Shown: in pieces, positions 2,884 to 13,127 of the stretch
Layout: every line of letters starts with the position of its first letter
Position numbering within the stretch: the stretch's first letter is position 1
Source: Verrucomicrobiaceae bacterium E54
GTDB lineage: Bacteria > Verrucomicrobiota > Verrucomicrobiia > Verrucomicrobiales > Akkermansiaceae
NCBI GenBank assembly: GCA_022548915.1
Contig: JAKZES010000002.1
Location: 186,001 to 250,000 of the forward strand
Length of the DNA: 64,000 bases
Direction: 5' to 3'
Position numbers and translations under genes: made by a program
Notes under the pieces: generated by a model
The model's input: the letters and a program-made list of their open reading frames with translations, nothing else
Told to the model about the DNA's origin: nothing
The model's database searches: none

Positions 2884-3858
2884 ATGAAGCTCACACTCAT
2901 CCTCTCGGGACTGCTTCTGGCAACCCTTCCCGCCGACCCCCTGCCGTCGTGGAACGGAAACCCGGCCAAGAAGGCCATCATCGAATTCGTCGGAAAGGTG
3001 ACCACGCCCGGTTCGCCCGACTACGTCGATCCGGCCGCGCGCATCGCCACTTTCGACAACGACGGCTGCCTGTGGTCCGAGCAACCGATGTATTTCCAGG
3101 CCTTCTATATCTTCGACCGGATCAAGGAACTCGCACCCGACCACCCCGAGTGGAAGGACAAGGAGCCCTTCGCCTCGGTGCTGAAAGACGACATCAAGGG
3201 TGCCCTCGCGGGAGGTGAGAAAGCGTTGCTCGAAATGGCCATGGCGACCCACGCCGGCCTTACCGACGAGGAGTTCCGCAAGGCGGTCCGTGACTGGCTC
3301 GACACCGCCCGCCATCCGAAGACCGGCATGGCTTACGACAAGATGCTCTATCAGCCGATGCTCGAGCTGCTTGCCTATCTCCGCGCCGAGGGTTTCAAGA
3401 CCTTCATCGTCTCCGGTGGCGGCATCGACTTCGTGCGCGTCTTCGCCGAGGAAGCGTATGGCATTCCGCCCGAGCAGGTGATCGGGTCGAGCATCAAGGC
3501 CGGCTACGAGCTGCGCGACGGCAAGCCGGTCGTCGTCAAGCTGCCCGAACTCAACTTCATCGACGACAAGGCGGGCAAGCCGGTCGGCATCCACCAGCAC
3601 ATCGGCCGCCGCCCGATCTTCGCCGCGGGCAACTCCGACGGCGACTTCCAGATGCTCGAATGGACCACCGCCGGCGAGGGCGCTCGCTTCGGGCTGCTCG
3701 TACACCACGACGACGCCGAACGCGAGTTCGCCTATGATCGCGAGAGCCACGTCGGGAAGCTCGACAGGGGCCTCGACGAGGGCCCGAGGCGCGGCTGGAC
3801 GATCGTCAGCATGAAGGACGACTGGGCGAGGATCTATCCACAAGCTGACGACAACTGA
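2884..3858 (+). CDS. HAD-superfamily phosphatase (SerB-like), exported
   Basis: A 324-residue haloacid-dehalogenase-like phosphohydrolase. All four HAD motifs are visible: motif I D58-N-D60-G-C-L-W, motif II S177-G-G-G, motif III K229, and motif IV G-N-S-D252-G-D254. A helical cap lies between motifs I and II, as in phosphoserine-phosphatase-type (C1 cap) members, but the substrate is not known. The N-terminus is hydrophobic (residues 1-18), a likely signal peptide. A GTG in the same frame at 2848 was rejected because it lies inside the terminator of the preceding gene. The gene is followed by the first hairpin repeat of the Bat operon region. Confidence 0.85.
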   Translation: MKLTLILSGLLLATLPADPLPSWNGNPAKKAIIEFVGKVTTPGSPDYVDPAARIATFDNDGCLWSEQPMYFQAFYIFDRIKELAPDHPEWKDKEPFASVLKDDIKGALAGGEKALLEMAMATHAGLTDEEFRKAVRDWLDTARHPKTGMAYDKMLYQPMLELLAYLRAEGFKTFIVSGGGIDFVRVFAEEAYGIPPEQVIGSSIKAGYELRDGKPVVVKLPELNFIDDKAGKPVGIHQHIGRRPIFAAGNSDGDFQMLEWTTAGEGARFGLLVHHDDAEREFAYDRESHVGKLDRGLDEGPRRGWTIVSMKDDWARIYPQADDN

Positions 3859-3864
3859 TTTATC

Positions 3865-3941
3865 ACAAAAGGTCGCAAAGTTCGCAAAGGCCAAAGTTGA
3901 CCACACCCCATCCCCTCTTTGCGTCCTTCGCGACCTTCTGT
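3865..3941. repeat. hairpin repeat copy 1 (CTTyGCG 9-nt-unit element)
   Basis: Left arm 3865-3890, loop of 26 nt, right arm 3917-3941. The right arm is three 9-nt units of the form CTTyGCGnn ending in CTTCTGT; the left arm is its imperfect reverse complement. The element fills the gap between the HAD phosphatase and moxR. Four more copies lie within the next 6 kb. Confidence 0.9.
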
Positions 3942-3956
3942 AGAAACCTGCATACC

Positions 3957-4916
<960 letters not shown>

Positions 4917-4920
4917 TTTT

Positions 4921-5419
4921 ACAGAAGGACGCGAAGAGCGCGAAGGATTGATGGAGGATGCATTCGAAATTCCAGAGAGCGGATGAACTGAGTCACCTCG
5001 CGATTGGCGCGGCGATTGAAGCCCATAAACTCAAGGGACCGGGCTTGATCGAATCGATCTTCGAAAAGTGTCTGATGCGGGAGCTTTTCCTCCGGGACAT
5101 CGAAGCGCAGCAGCAGTTGAGGGTTCCAATCGAATACAAGGGATTGGTGTTCGAAGAGCCGCTGAGGCTTGATGTTCTTCTGGAAGAGAACCTAGTCCTG
5201 GAACTCAAGGTGGTTGAGAAGTTCCTCCCCATCCACAAGGCCCAACTCCTCAGTTACATGAAGCTCCGGGACGTTCCTCTCGGTCTTATCATCAACTTCC
5301 AATCGCTGCGTCTCGTCGACGGCGTGCATCGCCTCATTCTCCCCGGTGCCGACAAACCCGAAAATCCCCCATCCATCCACTGAACAACCCGAGCCTTCGC
5401 GTCCTTCGCTGCCTTCTGT
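4921..5419. mobile_element. hairpin repeat copy 2, expanded loop carrying a GxxExxY gene
   Basis: Left arm 4921-4946 and right arm 5394-5419 are 26-nt imperfect inverted repeats of the same 9-nt-unit family found at four other sites in this operon. In those the loop is 26-31 nt; here it is 447 nt and is filled almost exactly by one gene (4958-5383), leaving about 11 and 10 nt on the two sides. That geometry suggests a small mobile element, with the other copies as gene-less relatives. Calling it mobile is inference: no target duplication is evident. Confidence 0.6.
4958..5383 (+). CDS. GxxExxY protein (PD-(D/E)XK nuclease-like)
   Basis: A 141-residue member of the GxxExxY family (PF13366). 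The signature is G29-L-I-E32-S-I-F35, with Phe in place of the final Tyr. D72 and E82-L-K84 (LRLDV and LELKV) form a D...ExK pattern like the PD-(D/E)XK nuclease fold. The family is highly multiplied in Verrucomicrobiota and Planctomycetota genomes and its role is unknown. GGAGG directly abuts the ATG. The gene interrupts the otherwise conserved moxR-DUF58 order and lies inside the arms of a hairpin repeat, so it is probably an inserted passenger and not a Bat component. Confidence 0.88.
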   Translation: MHSKFQRADELSHLAIGAAIEAHKLKGPGLIESIFEKCLMRELFLRDIEAQQQLRVPIEYKGLVFEEPLRLDVLLEENLVLELKVVEKFLPIHKAQLLSYMKLRDVPLGLIINFQSLRLVDGVHRLILPGADKPENPPSIH

Positions 5420-5434
5420 AAAAATTCTTCCCGC

Positions 5435-6346
5435 ATGCCTGCCCGCGTCACTGTCGACCTCGACCACCTCGTCCTGCTCAAGGCCGAGGCGCACGGGTTC
5501 TCGCTTCTGTCCCGCCAACCGGTCGGGTCGCTGCTCGCCGGCCGCCATGCCTCGCGGCTTCGCGGCCGCGGCCTCGCCTTCGAGGAAATGCGCCACTACC
5601 ACCCCGGCGACGACATCCGCACCATCGACTGGCGCGCCACCGCCCGCCTGCGCTCACCGCACGTCCGAGTCTACTCCGAGGAACGCGAACGACCGGTCTT
5701 TTTCGTGGTCGACCAGCGGAGCCCGATGTTCTTCGGCAGCCGCCGCGCGATGAAATCGGTCGCCGCCGCCGAGTTGGCCGCGCTCGGTGCCTGGCGCTCG
5801 CTTGGGGCAGGAGATCGCGTCGGCGGGATCGTCTTCAATGAGTCGGAGATGGTCACCCTCCGACCCAACCGCGGACCCACCCAGGCACTGAGGCTCTTCC
5901 ATGAGATCGTTCGCCTCAATCAACGGCTCGCGGATGGCGATCCTCCTGCAGGCCAAGTGACGCTCAACTCCGTACTCGAGACCGCAGTGCAACAGGCGAA
6001 ACACGATCACCTGGTGGTGGTCGTCACCGACCTCGACGGCGCCGATGCCACCACCGGCGAACTCGTCACCCGCCTGGGCGTGCACAACGACGTGTTGGTC
6101 GCTGCGGTCTATGATCCTCTGGGTGTCCGGCTCACCGGCAGTCCGGGAATGCGGGCCGCCGACCGTGGCCGGAGTTGGGACATCCCGGCCGGTGGCGGCT
6201 TCGAAGAAAAGTTCCGCAAGGCCTTCGAGGACGTCCTCGAGCATTGGCGGACGATCTTCCGCGACCTGCAGATCCCGCTTTTCCCTGTCTCCACCGCCAC
6301 GCCGGTGATCGATCAGATTCACGAACTCCTCGGTGCCCGGCAATGA
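5435..6346 (+). CDS. DUF58 domain protein of the MoxR/Bat operon
   Basis: A 303-residue DUF58 (PF01882) protein. The family hallmark is clear at residues 52-71: R-x-Y-x-P57-G-D-D60-x-R-x-I-D-W66-x-x-x-A-R. The C-terminal half has a VWA-like alternation of strands and helices (FFVVDQRS, LVVVVTDLDG). DUF58 proteins are always found next to MoxR and VWA genes and are presumed MoxR clients at the membrane. It begins 15 nt after the right arm of hairpin copy 2 and is followed by hairpin copy 3. Confidence 0.9.
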   Translation: MPARVTVDLDHLVLLKAEAHGFSLLSRQPVGSLLAGRHASRLRGRGLAFEEMRHYHPGDDIRTIDWRATARLRSPHVRVYSEERERPVFFVVDQRSPMFFGSRRAMKSVAAAELAALGAWRSLGAGDRVGGIVFNESEMVTLRPNRGPTQALRLFHEIVRLNQRLADGDPPAGQVTLNSVLETAVQQAKHDHLVVVVTDLDGADATTGELVTRLGVHNDVLVAAVYDPLGVRLTGSPGMRAADRGRSWDIPAGGGFEEKFRKAFEDVLEHWRTIFRDLQIPLFPVSTATPVIDQIHELLGARQ

Positions 6347-6358
6347 CGATGGTTCTCA

Positions 6359-6434
6359 ACAAAAGATCGCGAAGGACGCAAAGTCAGATCCACAACATCA
6401 TTCCAGAAGCTTCGCGCTCTTCGCGTCCTTCTGT
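6359..6434. repeat. hairpin repeat copy 3
   Basis: Left arm 6359-6383, 26-nt loop, right arm 6410-6434, the same 9-nt-unit family (right arm ending CGCGTCCTTCTGT). It fills the whole gap between the DUF58 gene and the DUF4381 gene. Confidence 0.9.
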
Positions 6435-6449
6435 AAACCACCCAAGCGA

Positions 6450-6899
6450 ATGACCGATGATCCCGCCAGCCTCGACAAGCTCCACGACATCGTCGTGCCC
6501 GAGCCGGTGTCGTTGTGGCCCATGGCGCCGGGCTGGTGGGTCCTGCTGACGCTCGTCTCCGCTTTCTTTCTGATCCTCGCGATCCGTCACTTTCGCCGCT
6601 GGCGGGCCAATGCCTACCGGCGCGCCGCGCTTCAAGAACTCGCGAAGTCGGAAAGCGCGGAGCACGTCGCGGTCATCTTGCGCCGCACGGCCCTTGCCAT
6701 CGTTCCGCGGGAATCCATCGCCGCGCTCCACGACGATGCCTGGATGGCCTGGCTCGCCGGTCGGTCACCGCTGGCGGTGCCCGACTCCATCCGGGCCGCG
6801 CTCACCCGATCGCTGTATGCCGGGGAGCCCGCGGCCGACCTCGACGAGCTGCGGAATTTCGCCGAGTGCTGGATCCGCCAACACACCCGACCATGCTGA
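6450..6899 (+). CDS. DUF4381-like membrane protein of the Bat operon
   Basis: A 149-residue protein with one transmembrane helix (about residues 26-46) and a basic cytoplasmic start after it (HFRRWRANAYRR). The size, the N-terminal LHDIVVPEPVS-type lead and the position between DUF58 and BatA match DUF4381 proteins, which accompany MoxR/VWA operons. Its biochemical role is unknown. The ATG at 6450 was chosen because the frame upstream is the hairpin repeat. Its stop overlaps the ATG of the next gene by 7 nt, which suggests translational coupling. Confidence 0.8.
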   Translation: MTDDPASLDKLHDIVVPEPVSLWPMAPGWWVLLTLVSAFFLILAIRHFRRWRANAYRRAALQELAKSESAEHVAVILRRTALAIVPRESIAALHDDAWMAWLAGRSPLAVPDSIRAALTRSLYAGEPAADLDELRNFAECWIRQHTRPC

Positions 6900-7918
6900 G
6901 CTTCGCCCATCTCTGGCTGCTTCTGCTGGCTCCGCTGCCCTGGCTGGTCTGGAAGCTCGCGCCTCCGAAACCGCCGTCCCGCGTGGCGGTGCGGGTGCCC
7001 TTCGGTCGCCGGCTCGAGCAGGCGCTCGGGTCCGGCTCGCCCGGCACCACCGGCGGCGACAGCCGCCTCGGACTCCTCTGGCCCACGCTTGTGTGGCTAT
7101 TCGTGCTGCTCGCCCTCGCCCGCCCGCAGTGGATCGAGCCACCGATCGAGCAGATGCTCCCCACCCGCGACCTGTTGCTGCTCGTCGATCTCTCCGGTTC
7201 GATGGACCAGAAGGACTTCACCAATTTCCAAGGCAAGACGGTGAGCCGACTCGATGCGGTGAAGGAGATCCTTGGCGACTTCCTCGAAAGGCGGAAAGGC
7301 GACCGGGTCGGCCTGGTGGTGTTCGGCGATTCACCTTTCCTTCAGGCTCCCTTCTCCACGGACCTGTCCCTTTCCCGTGAACTTCTCGACGAGACTGCCG
7401 TGGGCATGGCCGGTCCGAAGACCGCGCTCGGCGATGCCATCGGCCTCGGCATCCACCTCTTCGACGAAAGCGAGGCTCCGGCCAGGACCATCATCGCACT
7501 CACCGACGGCAACGACACCAAGAGCCAGGTGCCGCCGGTCGAGGCCGCCCGCATCGCCGCCGACCGCGGGATCCGCATCCACACGGTCGCCATCGGGGAC
7601 CCCACCACCGCCGGCGAGGACAAGCTCGACCGGGAGACGCTCGACCAGGTGGCGCTAAGCGCGGGCGGCAAGTCCTTCTTCGCCGCCGACCGTGACGAGC
7701 TCGTCGGGATCTACGCCGAGTTGGATCGCATCGAAACGCGCGAGGTGAAGACCATCAGCCATCGTCCCCGCCGCGACCTATTCCACCTTCCGCTGCTGGC
7801 CGCCCTCCTGACCTCGACGCTATCCCGACTCATCTCCATCCGCGGAGCGCACGGTGCGGAAACTCCACGCCGCCCCCTGCGCGTCCATCCCGTCACCGGC
7901 GAACTCGAACTCAGTTAG
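6893..7918 (+). CDS. VWA-domain protein, BatA-like
   Basis: A 341-residue inner-membrane protein with a von Willebrand A domain. Two N-terminal hydrophobic segments (about 5-21 and 62-76) precede the VWA domain. The metal-ion-dependent adhesion site is intact: D99-L-S101-G-S103-M, with the matching TDGND loop later, so it should bind a divalent cation. BatA with BatB-BatD and MoxR forms an envelope system linked to aerotolerance or stress survival in several bacteria; the exact function is unsettled. It starts inside the end of the DUF4381 gene and is followed by hairpin copy 4. Confidence 0.88.
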   Translation: MLSFAHLWLLLLAPLPWLVWKLAPPKPPSRVAVRVPFGRRLEQALGSGSPGTTGGDSRLGLLWPTLVWLFVLLALARPQWIEPPIEQMLPTRDLLLLVDLSGSMDQKDFTNFQGKTVSRLDAVKEILGDFLERRKGDRVGLVVFGDSPFLQAPFSTDLSLSRELLDETAVGMAGPKTALGDAIGLGIHLFDESEAPARTIIALTDGNDTKSQVPPVEAARIAADRGIRIHTVAIGDPTTAGEDKLDRETLDQVALSAGGKSFFAADRDELVGIYAELDRIETREVKTISHRPRRDLFHLPLLAALLTSTLSRLISIRGAHGAETPRRPLRVHPVTGELELS

Positions 7919-7938
7919 ACTCCGATATCCGATGTTTC

Positions 7939-8016
7939 ACAGAAGCACGCAAAGCTCGCGAAGCACGACTGATGATGTCTCTCAGTTGATCCTTTGCGCT
8001 CTTCGCGACCTTCTGT
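7939..8016. repeat. hairpin repeat copy 4
   Basis: Left arm 7939-7964, 26-nt loop, right arm 7991-8016 (ending CTTCGCGACCTTCTGT). It fills the gap between the two VWA genes, ending 12 nt before the next ATG. Confidence 0.9.
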
Positions 8017-8028
8017 GAGTCCAACAGC

Positions 8029-8940
8029 ATGACCGAACCCTTCCAGTTCCTCCGCCCCGCCGCGCTGCTTTTGGCACCGGTGGTGGTCGTGCTGTGGTGG
8101 CTGTGGCAGCGCCACGCCGATCCGCTTCGCGGATGGCGCGCCCAGATGGATCCGGAAATCCTCGGTGCCTTGGTCGATCGATCATCCGCCGGCCGAGGCC
8201 GCGCCTGGCCGTTTCTCGCCGCGTGGCTGTTTGGCGTGCTCGCCATCGCCGGCCCTTCGTGGCGACCCGAGCCGAGCCCATTTGCCGAGGACGCGACGCC
8301 GCTCGTGATTCTGCTCAAGGCCGACCTGAGCATGGAGACGCCCGATCCCGAGCCTTCGAGGATGGAGCGCGCCCACCTCAAGATCCGCGACCTCTCGGAG
8401 GCGCGCAAAGGCCAGCCGCTCGGGCTGATCGCCTATGCCAGCAGCGCGCACCTCGTGCTGCCGCCGACCAAGGACACCTCCGCCGTGGCCACCATGGCGG
8501 CGGAGATTTCCCCGGAGATCATGCCCGAGCCCGGCGACCGGCTCGATCTCGCCATCGCCCGGGCGGCCCGGCTTCTCGAGAATCAAACCGGCAGCCTGCT
8601 GATCATCACCGACACGGCCAGTGCCGCGACCGAGGCCCTCGCCGAAGCGTGGAAGAAGGCGGGCTCACCCGACATCCAGATTCTCGCGATCTCCCCGCCT
8701 GCAGCCTCGGTCGAACCGCTCGAGCCCATGGCGAAGTCGCTCCGCGCGCCACTCGTTCCGATGAGCACCGATGACGCCGACATCGCCGACATCGTCCGCC
8801 ACGCCGCCCGGACACCGGTCGCACGCGATGCCAAGGGCAATGCCCGACGCAAGGACGACGGCTACCTCCTGGTCCCCGTCATTGCCGTTCTCGCTCTGCT
8901 TCCCTTCCGCCGGGAAACCCGAACCCTTTCCGAGTCATGA
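8029..8940 (+). CDS. VWA-like protein with degenerate MIDAS, BatB-like
   Basis: A 303-residue membrane protein with hydrophobic segments near residues 10-26 and 60-75 and a VWA-like domain after them, plus a C-terminal hydrophobic stretch (LVPVIAVLALLPF). In the place of the usual DxSxS motif it reads K97-A-D-L-S101-M, so the first Asp is lost, and the usual GT loop reads PGDRLDLA. Metal binding is therefore doubtful. Its order after BatA and before a TPR protein marks it as BatB. Its stop overlaps the next ATG (ATGA at 8937-8940). Confidence 0.82.
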   Translation: MTEPFQFLRPAALLLAPVVVVLWWLWQRHADPLRGWRAQMDPEILGALVDRSSAGRGRAWPFLAAWLFGVLAIAGPSWRPEPSPFAEDATPLVILLKADLSMETPDPEPSRMERAHLKIRDLSEARKGQPLGLIAYASSAHLVLPPTKDTSAVATMAAEISPEIMPEPGDRLDLAIARAARLLENQTGSLLIITDTASAATEALAEAWKKAGSPDIQILAISPPAASVEPLEPMAKSLRAPLVPMSTDDADIADIVRHAARTPVARDAKGNARRKDDGYLLVPVIAVLALLPFRRETRTLSES

Positions 8941-9527
8941 GCCTCCACGGTCCATCCGGCATCCTCGCCTCCATCGCGTTCGCGGCCACCTTCTGGTTCA
9001 CCGCCGACCAGCAGGGGCAACGCTCCTTTGAGCGAGAGGATTTCACCGAAGCCGCCGAGCATTTCAACGATCCGATGTGGAAGGGCGTCGCCCTCTATCG
9101 TGACGGCGAGTTCAAGCAGGCTCAGGCGGTCTTCGCCCGTCTCGACACCGCCGAAGCGCACTACAACCGCGGCAATTGCCTGGTCTTCCTGGGCAAGTAT
9201 CAGGACGCCGTCGCGAGCTACGACCGAGCGCTCACCCGCCGCCCCGGCTGGATCGAGGCCGGGGAGAACCGGGCCATCGCCGAGGCCCGCGGCGAGGCCA
9301 CCAAGAACGAAGGTGGTGACATGGGTGACCAGAAGCTCGGCGCCGACAAGATCGTCTTCGACAAGAAGAAGCCCGGTGGCCAGGAGACCCAGGTGACGGG
9401 TGAGCAGTCGGCCGACCCGGCATCCATGCAGGCGCTGTGGCTGCGCCGGGTCCAGACCCGGCCCGCCGATTTCCTCAGGGCCAAGTTCGCCTATCAGAAT
9501 CAGTTCGGAGAGGGGGTGGAGGAATGA
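8937..9527 (+). CDS. TPR protein, BatC-like
   Basis: A 196-residue protein with an N-terminal hydrophobic anchor or signal (about 8-22) followed by tetratricopeptide repeats: an FTEAAEHF unit, an FKQAQAVF unit, and a canonical YNRGNCLVFLGKYQDAVASY unit. The C-terminal part is polar and lysine-rich, with no recognisable domain. In Bat operons this TPR protein is thought to hold BatA/BatB/BatD in a membrane complex. It is coupled by ATGA overlaps both to the gene before it (8937-8940) and to the gene after it (9524-9527). Confidence 0.85.
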   Translation: MSLHGPSGILASIAFAATFWFTADQQGQRSFEREDFTEAAEHFNDPMWKGVALYRDGEFKQAQAVFARLDTAEAHYNRGNCLVFLGKYQDAVASYDRALTRRPGWIEAGENRAIAEARGEATKNEGGDMGDQKLGADKIVFDKKKPGGQETQVTGEQSADPASMQALWLRRVQTRPADFLRAKFAYQNQFGEGVEE

Positions 9528-10807
9528 GGCTTCTCTCACAGAAGTTCGCGAAGGACGCGAAGTTTTGGATGTCCTTCATCTGCTCCCTCATCCCTTCGCG
9601 ATCTTTGCGAGCTTCTGTGGGCATCTTCCTGTTCCCACTCGCCGCCCTCGCCGGGCCCTCCGCCCGTCTGGAGACCCCGACCACGGAAGCCTGGACTGGC
9701 CAGCGGATCGCCTTCTTCATCGAGCTTCACGCTCCCGGCACCTTCGACGGCGCGGCGTCTTTCGACATCCCGCGCATGCCGCAGTCGGTGGTGCTCAAGA
9801 CAGGCAATCCGGTGCTCGGATCGGTCACCGAGGGCGACACTGAATACTTCACCCAGCGCCACGAGTTCGCCCTCTTCTCCCAGGCCCAAGGCGAGGTCGA
9901 GCTGCCTCCCATCACCGCACGCTTTGCCCACAAGAAGGGCTACACCGGCCCCTCTTACGAGGCGGTCGAAACGATTCCCACCACGCGCTTCACCATCCGG
10001 CGTCCGCCCGGCAGTGAGCACCTTGATTTCCTCGTAACCACCGAGTCGCTGGAAATCAACGAGCGCTGGGACCCCGAGCCGGGTCCGGTGGAAACGGGCG
10101 CCGTCTTCAAGCGGATCATCATTCAGAGGGCATCGGATATCACCGGCATCGCGCTTCACCCCGCTCCCACCGACGAGATCGAGGGCATCCGCACCTATGC
10201 GGGCGATGCCGAGATCAGCGACCGCACGGATCGCGGCACGCTCAATGGCGAACGACGCGAGACCCTGACCTACCTCGTGCGAGAACCGGGCCTGCACACC
10301 CTCCCGGCGATCCGCTACGACTGGTGGAACCCGGAAACCCGGTCGCTCGAGTCGAAAACCCTGCCCGGTGTCTCCTTCACCGCGACCGCCCCGCCTCCGA
10401 CTCCACCGCAGCCTTCGCGCCGACGCCATCTATGGTGGGCGATCCCGCTGGCGGTCGCGGTGCTGCTCGTCCGTTTCCGTCATCGGCTTCGAGATGCCAT
10501 CCAGCGCTGCCGCGATTGCCTTGATCCACCCGACCGGCGGGCGGCCCGGCGATTTCTGCGGGCCTGCCGCCGCCACCAACCCGCCCGGGCGGCGCAGACC
10601 TGGAGCGACTATCAGGCCGTGGATCGCTGCTTTCAGGGGAGCCGGGAGTTCCACGACGAGCTGCTGGCCCTGCGACGGATTTCCCACGGTCCGGGCACCG
10701 CACCACGGTCGTGGCGCGGAGACCGGCTCGCCACCGCCTTCCGGGCTTCCAGGGTCCGGCGCCCACGACCGGATGCACGCTCTCCGCTTCCTGGGTTGAA
10801 CATCTGA
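9524..10807 (+). CDS. BatD-like protein
   Basis: A 427-residue protein with an N-terminal signal sequence, a run of beta-rich Ig-like domains (residues about 45-295) and a transmembrane helix at about 302-320 followed by a basic cytoplasmic tail. This architecture and the operon position match BatD (oxygen tolerance) proteins. The ATG at 9524 overlaps the preceding stop (ATGA); an alternative ATG is at 9569. Hairpin copy 5 (9538-9618) lies within the first 95 coding bases, so the n-region of the signal peptide is encoded by the repeat. Function within the Bat complex is inferred from context. Confidence 0.82.
   Translation: MRLLSQKFAKDAKFWMSFICSLIPSRSLRASVGIFLFPLAALAGPSARLETPTTEAWTGQRIAFFIELHAPGTFDGAASFDIPRMPQSVVLKTGNPVLGSVTEGDTEYFTQRHEFALFSQAQGEVELPPITARFAHKKGYTGPSYEAVETIPTTRFTIRRPPGSEHLDFLVTTESLEINERWDPEPGPVETGAVFKRIIIQRASDITGIALHPAPTDEIEGIRTYAGDAEISDRTDRGTLNGERRETLTYLVREPGLHTLPAIRYDWWNPETRSLESKTLPGVSFTATAPPPTPPQPSRRRHLWWAIPLAVAVLLVRFRHRLRDAIQRCRDCLDPPDRRAARRFLRACRRHQPARAAQTWSDYQAVDRCFQGSREFHDELLALRRISHGPGTAPRSWRGDRLATAFRASRVRRPRPDARSPLPGLNI
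9538..9618. repeat. hairpin repeat copy 5, inside the batD signal-peptide region
   Basis: Left arm 9538-9562, loop about 31 nt, right arm 9594-9618. It belongs to the same 9-nt-unit family, but unlike the other copies it lies downstream of an overlapping ATG, so it is probably translated. Because the unit length is a multiple of three, the element stays open in frame. Confidence 0.85.
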
Positions 10808-13051: not shown

Positions 13052-13127
13052 GGAGAAGGGACTTCCAGTCCCTTTCCCCGGCGACTCGACTGCGACCTGG
13101 GTAAAAGGGACTGGAAGTCCCTTCTCC
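13052..13127. repeat. nested palindrome, possible bidirectional terminator
   Basis: Arms 13052-13075 and 13104-13127 are perfect 24-bp inverted repeats with a 28-nt spacer. Each arm is itself a hairpin: AAGGGACT, a 3-nt loop, then AGTCCCTT. It lies between two convergent genes (lipase-like on plus, aminotransferase on minus), so a terminator role for both is plausible, though the T-runs are only 3-4 nt. Confidence 0.85.

Follow-up and report, generated by a model that had tools for sequence, protein, structure and literature searches.

Small genes between inverted word arrays: GxxExxY loci as a candidate kind of tiny mobile element

We found that a small gene of the GxxExxY family lies between two inverted arrays of a short iterated word, and that this package of arms and gene recurs at unrelated sites in many bacterial phyla and in one archaeal genome. 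The word code is tied to the protein subfamily, and it is the words, rather than the base pairing, that are conserved in the arms. The original case sits at 4917-5423 of the window, the 64,000-nucleotide stretch analysed here (G000:C178:186001-250000, from a 5.9-Mb genome), and we put at about even the chance that it is a small autonomous mobile element whose PD-(D/E)XK protein reads its own word arrays as DNA. Taken as a whole, the package suggests a tiny mobile element of a kind not yet described.

The window element and its protein

The element begins directly past the stop codon of a host gene for a MoxR-type AAA ATPase (AAA_3; 3957-4916, forward strand). Its left arm (4917-4946, forward strand) carries ACAGAAGG at 4921-4928, followed by CGCGAAG words at 4930-4936 and 4939-4945 with a pitch of 9 nt, and the 11 nt left over between arm and gene (4947-4957, forward strand) hold a GGAGG that, as the sequence reads, resembles a ribosome-binding site. 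The GxxExxY gene (4958-5383, forward strand) encodes 141 aa with a minimal PD-(D/E)XK nuclease core consisting of D72, E82-x-K84 and Q96. The right arm (5394-5423, reverse strand) carries the same kind of words, inverted, and the host gene downstream, encoding a DUF58 protein (5435-6346, forward strand), starts 11 nt past it. The arms form an inverted repeat of 30 nt with 87% complementarity, and the gene takes up the 447 nt between them with 11 nt to spare on the left and 10 nt on the right, which confirmed the claim of the first-pass annotation that it sits exactly in a hairpin loop.

For comparison among loci, we defined the arm score as the best complementary match between the 200 nt upstream and the 250 nt downstream of the domain. 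None of 2000 dinucleotide shuffles of both window flanks reached the observed score of 20 (maximum 16), which excludes a chance origin of these arms. This genome has nine GxxExxY genes, eight of which have arms scoring at least 20, the ninth (L004) scoring 12.5, and the arm sequences differ among the nine.

The window protein matched GxxExxY TIGR04256 (E 2.4e-33, 114.9 bits against a cut-off of 35) and PDDEXK_3 PF13366 (E 9.5e-33, 113.5 bits against a cut-off of 22). At E 0.001 PF13366 was the only match, with no HUH Y1 tyrosine transposase, and over both family searches this protein matched only the PDDEXK_3 / GxxExxY families and no DDE, HUH, tyrosine or serine recombinase. The D72...E82-x-K84 pattern of PD-(D/E)XK type, which had been noticed in the window protein by reading alone, is indeed present there and, like Q96, invariant in 55 sequences (the window protein and 54 relatives, mostly of one subfamily). 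In 32 more diverse proteins D72 was invariant, K84 and Q96 were kept in at least 90%, and position 82 was D in several; in the protein of locus L022 a T replaces K84, yet its arms are nearly perfect (score 34).

An AlphaFold2 model built from the 55 sequences (pLDDT 93, pTM 0.85) was aligned by VIA-align first with Cas4 SSO0001 (Z 9.4 over 102 residues, 4.5 A) and next with a restriction-like protein (7.7), Cas4 (7.0) and Hjc (6.8), where Z values below 8 may reflect a mere common arrangement. Foldseek returned nothing for the model at E 0.001, the best match being a Cas4-like protein at 2.8e-3, and a sequence search of solved structures gave no convincing relative (best E 0.7). On this modelling, the predicted fold is nearest to Cas4 and other PD-(D/E)XK nucleases, and the protein is a predicted nuclease.

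A role as a defence gene was considered and rejected, PADLOC giving no match for the window protein; when six proteins were run, one subfamily member (L017) had weak matches, mostly to Cas4b/Cas4, at 1e-3 to 6e-3. Viral spread was likewise rejected, a scan of viral contigs with the main subfamily yielding 21 pattern matches of which none was a relative. No match to the main-subfamily protein of L012 turned up among 50,697 phage records, and 8 of 72,556 plasmids matched it at E 1e-5.

Arms across phyla and the code of their words

We collected GxxExxY loci from this genome and its relatives, from a sample of the phylum and from many phyla (main subfamily only, the best 80 of 585), leaving out six duplicate loci, three fragments, one locus without a left flank and five without full flanks. 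Arms scored at least 16 in 130 of the 175 loci with full flanks, where orthologous loci from related species are counted separately and the 130 include inverted repeats other than word arrays (e.g. L078, L099 and L102). By set, this score was reached in 26 of 33 loci from this genome and its relatives, in 50 of 67 from the phylum and in 54 of 75 from the all-phyla set (main subfamily, from the best 80 of 585). The controls lay far lower: 2.4% of 3500 mismatched left/right flank pairs, 1.4% of 292 neighbouring ORFs (100-220 aa, same loci) and 0.18% of 2283 position windows. The arrangement of arms and gene that the first-pass annotation had expected in relatives was thus recovered, though the arm sequence varies. 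GxxExxY genes without such flanks, which the first-pass annotation had named as counter-evidence, do occur but form a minority, 45 of the 175 scoring below 16, and 24 of the 30 loci below 14 keep a word array on at least one of the two sides, compared with 98 of 1478 single control windows.

We then have a further sample of 60 loci from genomes reached via the all-phyla loci, nearly all of other phyla (L396 is probably from the window's own phylum) and four of them repeating earlier loci. Here arms scored at least 16 in 35 of the 60, against 0.9% of 1171 mismatched pairs. In the window's phylum 69 of 145 genomes had a match, with 1-12 GxxExxY genes per genome, and the proposal of a self-contained unit of arms and nuclease-like gene, in several copies per genome, held up, with a wide spread across phyla. 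Could the arrangement be an ordinary feature, that is, a chance inverted repeat, a terminator or a REP-like repeat that a gene adjoins by accident? Intergenic repeats of this sort are frequent in the DNA examined, but all flank-pair, ORF, position and shuffle controls contradict this explanation, as does the association across phyla, and we consider it extremely improbable. As a separate observation, at 2819-3460 of L151 the gene is flanked by two complete short hairpins and does not lie inside one large loop; the loops of these hairpins hold terminator-like palindromes, and L141 (3355) has a similar loop downstream.

Each arm repeats one 7-nt word about three times, at a pitch of 8-10 nt, and the word varies between elements. 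Shifted against themselves, 81% of 131 arms matched in at least 7 of 8 positions, compared with 5% of letter shuffles. The word of the largest subfamily is CRCNRAG (CACAGAG, CGCAAAG, CGCCAAG, CACGGAG etc.), with start-to-start distances of 8 nt (53 times), 9 nt (57) and 10 nt (16); three words are commonest in its left arms (49 of 100). Across 83 left and 83 right arms of CRCNRAG type, a TTNAC cap (48-73% per base) precedes the first word at both ends, and on either side conservation reaches only about 6 nt outwards from that word. The arms had initially been taken for one shared repeat; this view had to be given up, as they are word arrays and each protein subfamily has its own repeats.

In ungapped stems of the main subfamily, mismatches occupied 107 of 218 spacer positions (49%) versus 75 of 1080 word positions (7%, p 2e-46), and within the word the free position N was mismatched in 33% and the other positions in 0-6%. 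Since the words are kept and the pairing is not, recognition of the words as binding sites is favoured over a selected RNA or DNA stem.

To relate words to proteins, we clustered 137 proteins at 40% identity and counted a word when it was present twice or more. CRCNRAG occurred in 86 of 100 members of the main cluster versus 2 of 37 others, CRCNRAA in 9 of 17 of the second cluster versus 0 of 120, CARGAT in 9 of 12 of the third versus 2 of 125, and CRCNRAT in 5 of 7 of the fourth versus 4 of 130. Protein similarity and arm similarity were correlated (Mantel rho 0.28, reached by 0 of 199 permutations), and within the main cluster the correlation for pairs below 70% identity was 0.21 (0 of 499 permutations). 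On a tree of 172 proteins, built from few columns and with many open forks, there were 7 changes of word type across the 141 typed rows, and every word group was more clustered than in all 500 shuffles, near-copies aiding the clustering. With the 31 untyped rows taken as a fourth group, the tree had 34 changes against a shuffled mean of 69.

In the further sample, word counts were made for loci with arms scoring at least 14 and without the four repeats. As predicted from the first set, CRCNRAG was present only with main-cluster proteins, in 9 of 17 of their loci versus 0 of 18 others (p 3e-4), and AT-ending words in 1 of 17 versus 13 of 18 (p 8e-5). A finer prediction of words failed among the smaller subfamilies, which were confined to the window's phylum in the first set and extend to others in this sample: cluster 4 proteins had CARGAT in 4 cases, CRCNRAT-type words in 5 and unclassed words in 5, and cluster 2 proteins had CRCNRAT-type words in 4 of 4.

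Sister elements, movement and gene-less copies

Genes of a four-helix-bundle family (TIGR02436 / 23S_rRNA_IVP) also lie between arrays of iterated words (L039-L048 and L244-L272). Inverted arrays scored at least 16 at 21 of 39 such loci, against 0.4% of 455 mismatched pairs; the words (AGTGGCT, AGGCTTT, AGTTGAA etc.) are unlike those of GxxExxY loci and have a pitch of about 7 by eye. We know of no nuclease motif in the four-helix-bundle genes. Taken jointly, the two families suggest a common plan in which inverted arrays enclose a small gene, each gene having a word of its own, and with a twin that has no known nuclease motif, nuclease chemistry may not be what moves the units. The family is known from rRNA intervening sequences (IVS), which the relevant passages of PMC4990558 describe as about 430 nt long and excised by RNase III, the stem measuring 28 bp and the loop carrying the gene, the 23S rRNA IVS of Coxiella having 428 nt, a 28-bp stem and a patchy distribution.

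Relative to their neighbours (117 elements, by longest ORF), 62 elements were in the sense of both, 22 were of type -+, 24 of type +- and 9 antisense to both; the idea of a fixed orientation was dropped, being true only in part. These counts enter on both sides of a reading in which the unit is an IVS-like RNA element, RNase III excising the loop from the operon transcript, the insertion being tolerated and the protein binding RNA. The 62 elements in the sense of both neighbours would fit, as would the size and layout, which match the 428-nt Coxiella 23S rRNA IVS as outlined in PMC4990558, and the presence of the IVS protein family in the sister elements. The 9 doubly antisense elements do not fit, a search of 3500-10500 of the window gave no Rfam match at E<=1, and stems with 49% of their spacer positions mismatched and their words kept are the opposite of selection for pairing. 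We consider this reading very unlikely.

The unit moves: it stands at unrelated sites, and relatives have the junctions free of it. L066 and L074 come from two species of the same genus; over 500 bp they share 88% identity, their flanks are unrelated, and the homology stops at most 5 nt from the outer ends of the L074 arms. Both flanks of the L074 junction were found in 8 of the 11 relatives examined, and both flanks of the L066 junction in 12 of 13, with the element in none; at these junctions 38-138 nt of reference spacer on each side (once 459) are also unaligned, so the limits of the empty site are not fixed to the base. At the moxR-DUF58 junction of the window, inspected by eye, the element is present in G000, G001 and G002, whereas G007, G008, G010 and G017 have neither element nor word arms. 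The empty sites foreseen by the first-pass annotation accordingly exist as element-free sites, but in those examined the arms, too, are usually gone instead of staying behind as a hairpin with a 26-nt loop. At L276 and L290, by eye, the junctions lacking the element hold other gene-less word hairpins (ATGAAAG- and ATGGAAT-type).

Another junction, pheS-pheT, in which L002 lies, was compared among 17 genomes, partly by eye. GxxExxY elements are present in G000 (CGCRAAG words) and G018 (ACAGGATT words), four-helix-bundle elements in G001 and G011, and gene-less hairpins in G008 and G009, with a word phase similar to that of the gene-bearing copy of G000. Solo arms were seen by eye in G003, G007 and G010, a likely remnant in G013 and longer spacers in G004 and G005; no element was seen by eye in G002, G012, G014, G016 and G017.

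The hairpins of G008 and G009 at a place where G000 has the gene, in similar word phase, are what homing would produce, the nuclease cutting gene-less hairpins that bear its words and arm-mediated repair placing the gene in the loop. The exact fit of the gene in the loop speaks for it as well, and so does the pair L016/L031, in which the flanks are 85% and 91% similar and the elements only 66%. Word arms are, however, mostly absent from gene-lacking sites: by eye there were none in the four of seven genomes without the element at the moxR junction or at five pheS-pheT junctions, and the element-free L066 and L074 junctions mostly lacked them as well; moreover, the homology between L066 and L074 takes in the arms to their outer ends. 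We regard homing as quite unlikely; it and IVS-like excision fit less well because of the element-free sites and the mismatched spacers, respectively.

No target site duplication was found in bulk, the mean direct match for 122 elements being 1.98 against 1.90 for mismatched pairs, a test in which single cases could differ. In the further sample we saw no genome with near-identical copies of the gene at two sites (75% over 250 bp).

Gene-less copies accompany the window element. Four sister hairpins share its operon, at 3865-3941 (27-nt loop), 6359-6434 (26 nt), 7939-8016 (28 nt) and 9538-9618 (31 nt); the loop length of 26 nt first given for the sisters is exact for the second of these and close for the other three. 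A genome-wide search for the ACAGAAGG-type arm, with 3 mismatches allowed, gave 18 matches against 3 for the reversed pattern. Ten lie in five hairpins of the window operon, two each in one hairpin at C22, C201 and C206, one is a single arm at C7 and one, with 3 mismatches, is at C88. An identical 25-nt right arm stands at 9594-9618 of the window, at C201:5237 and at C22:20815 (L234 1501-1525, L227 1501-1525), and the three gene-less hairpins have different loops and left arms, a pattern that suggests single arms were copied. In 996,505 bases, chosen mostly for GxxExxY genes and hence giving no genome-wide rate, we counted 154 CRCNRAG array pairs of the right polarity (some overlapping), 57 with loops below 150 nt and 77 with loops of 350-500 nt; pairs of the wrong polarity numbered 46, of which 19 were below 100 nt. 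The gene-less relatives that had been postulated are therefore real, both as the four hairpins of the operon and as the 57 short-loop pairs. An origin of the gene-less copies by internal deletion found no support: some of their loops, set by eye beside the ends of the gene, showed no likeness to them. At 13052-13127 the window also holds an inverted repeat of a different sequence type, with perfectly complementary arms of 24 nt and a loop of 28 nt, just downstream of an ORF that we take to be aminotransferase-like.

Selection on the protein was assessed in pairs. The L066/L074 protein gave dN.046 and dS.44, that is, purifying selection between mobile copies, and eight of nine further pairs also showed purifying selection, the exception L081/L100 having almost no changes. 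For L001/L020, orthologous copies at one site, pN was.15 and pS.82, which is strong purifying selection and unusual for a purely selfish insertion.

This selection on orthologous copies counts against the element reading and in favour of an explanation in which host processes, namely template switching or recombination at hairpin-forming repeats, move the unit and both proteins are passengers, each binding the words of its own arrays and regulating, stabilising or trimming these. Further points on that side are the occurrence of the architecture, with different words, in two protein families that are unrelated and of which one lacks a known nuclease motif; arms that are sometimes copied or kept singly, with apparent single-arm copies and persisting solo arms; and L022, which retains good arms without K84. 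Among these, the four-helix-bundle twin is the strongest counterpoint to movement driven by the nuclease: if the two families move in the same way, the chemistry may be done by host processes, with the proteins perhaps guiding or protecting. The host-driven explanation has to contend with the link between word and subfamily and with the retention of D72, E/D82, K84 and Q96, which suggest that catalysis on the words matters, and with the recurrence of the unit at unrelated sites with both ends and the gene intact. On balance we rate it unlikely.

Proposed mechanism and relation to known systems

For the reading that we prefer, an autonomous element whose protein reads its own arrays, we propose the following steps. 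First, the protein would attach to the iterated words of the two arrays, or to a hairpin or cruciform that they extrude, and would cut at the bound arrays; the unit would then be pasted or copied into intergenic gaps without target duplication, and short gene-less copies bearing the same words would be moved in trans. Direct word binding, cleavage and catalysis of movement by the GxxExxY protein are inferred, and the first steps, those of word binding, are proposed because of the co-variation of word and protein and the contrast between words and spacers. To our knowledge, no PD-(D/E)XK protein acts as the sole enzyme of a transposable element.

Our literature search, with most subscription journals and preprints outside its scope, found, among the papers listed, no description of these repeats or of a link to GxxExxY, and nothing on PDDEXK_3 together with an inverted repeat. 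Of the sources consulted in part, PMC8934634 treats GxxExxY in passages that do not concern repeats, and the portions of PMC11637426 hold nothing on such elements. Searched as text, six arm sequences had matches only in animal work, judged by title and the start of the abstract.

Somewhat short of even, in our estimate, is the probability of a broader proposal: that word-array hairpin elements form a categorically new class of mobile DNA. Small proteins without relationship to one another, namely a stand-alone PD-(D/E)XK nuclease and a four-helix bundle akin to rRNA IVS proteins, would each read their own iterated word in inverted arrays, spread with it into intergenic sites across phyla, and seed gene-less copies. 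If this is true, a PD-(D/E)XK nuclease would for the first time be the only enzyme of a transposition system, in the GxxExxY branch, which would also offer a readable protein-to-word code. Because word and protein co-vary over subfamilies, such a recognition code is directly testable and could be read from existing genomes. A widespread family known only as 'GxxExxY protein' would gain a function and a DNA target, the several GxxExxY copies per genome would be explained, the dispersed CACAGAG-, CGCAAAG- and ACAGGATT-type repeats would be accounted for, and rRNA intervening sequences would be connected with a broader set of hairpin elements.

Hairpins that carry a gene in their loop (IVS) and genes paired with palindromes (REP/RAYT) are already known, and several systems share features with the present one. 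IS elements with MITEs have terminal inverted repeats, gene-bearing and gene-less forms and no other cargo. The terminal inverted repeats and both forms are found here too, but without a DDE transposase or target site duplication, and with ends made of iterated words. Tn7- and Mu-type ends carry several transposase sites each, and TnsA is a PD-(D/E)XK nuclease. Likewise, each end here has several repeats, putatively protein-binding, and the protein is a predicted PD-(D/E)XK nuclease like TnsA; in contrast, the unit has one 141-aa protein, no DDE partner and no AAA regulator. With Cas4 or RecB-type nucleases and Hjc, the window protein shares the predicted fold (Z 9.4; Hjc 6.8) and the D...ExK...Q residues, but it is smaller and is encoded inside its own repeat.

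The 23S rRNA IVS resembles the unit in its size of about 430 nt, its terminal inverted repeats of about 28 bp, its one small loop gene and its patchy distribution, as far as described in the passages of PMC4990558. Unlike the IVS, the unit here has a PD-(D/E)XK gene, lies between protein genes and outside rRNA, and has arms of iterated words with mismatched spacers; the S23p gene is absent from the window element and present only in the sister four-helix-bundle elements. REP/RAYT systems (REPtrons) and TIRtrons, in the sections of PMC3733652 that treat them, combine dispersed short intergenic palindromes with a gene-bearing, repeat-flanked form. The analogy to REP/RAYT drawn by the first-pass annotation is sound in its logic, in that dispersed gene-less palindromes and a gene-bearing form occur here as well, and fails in its parts. 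There is no HUH tyrosine transposase, and in the 83 left and 83 right CRCNRAG-type arms no GTAG or CGTC tag stands at the repeat end, where the terminal consensus is TTNAC-CRCNRAG. In further distinction from REP/RAYT, several word families occur per genome here, each tied to a protein subfamily.
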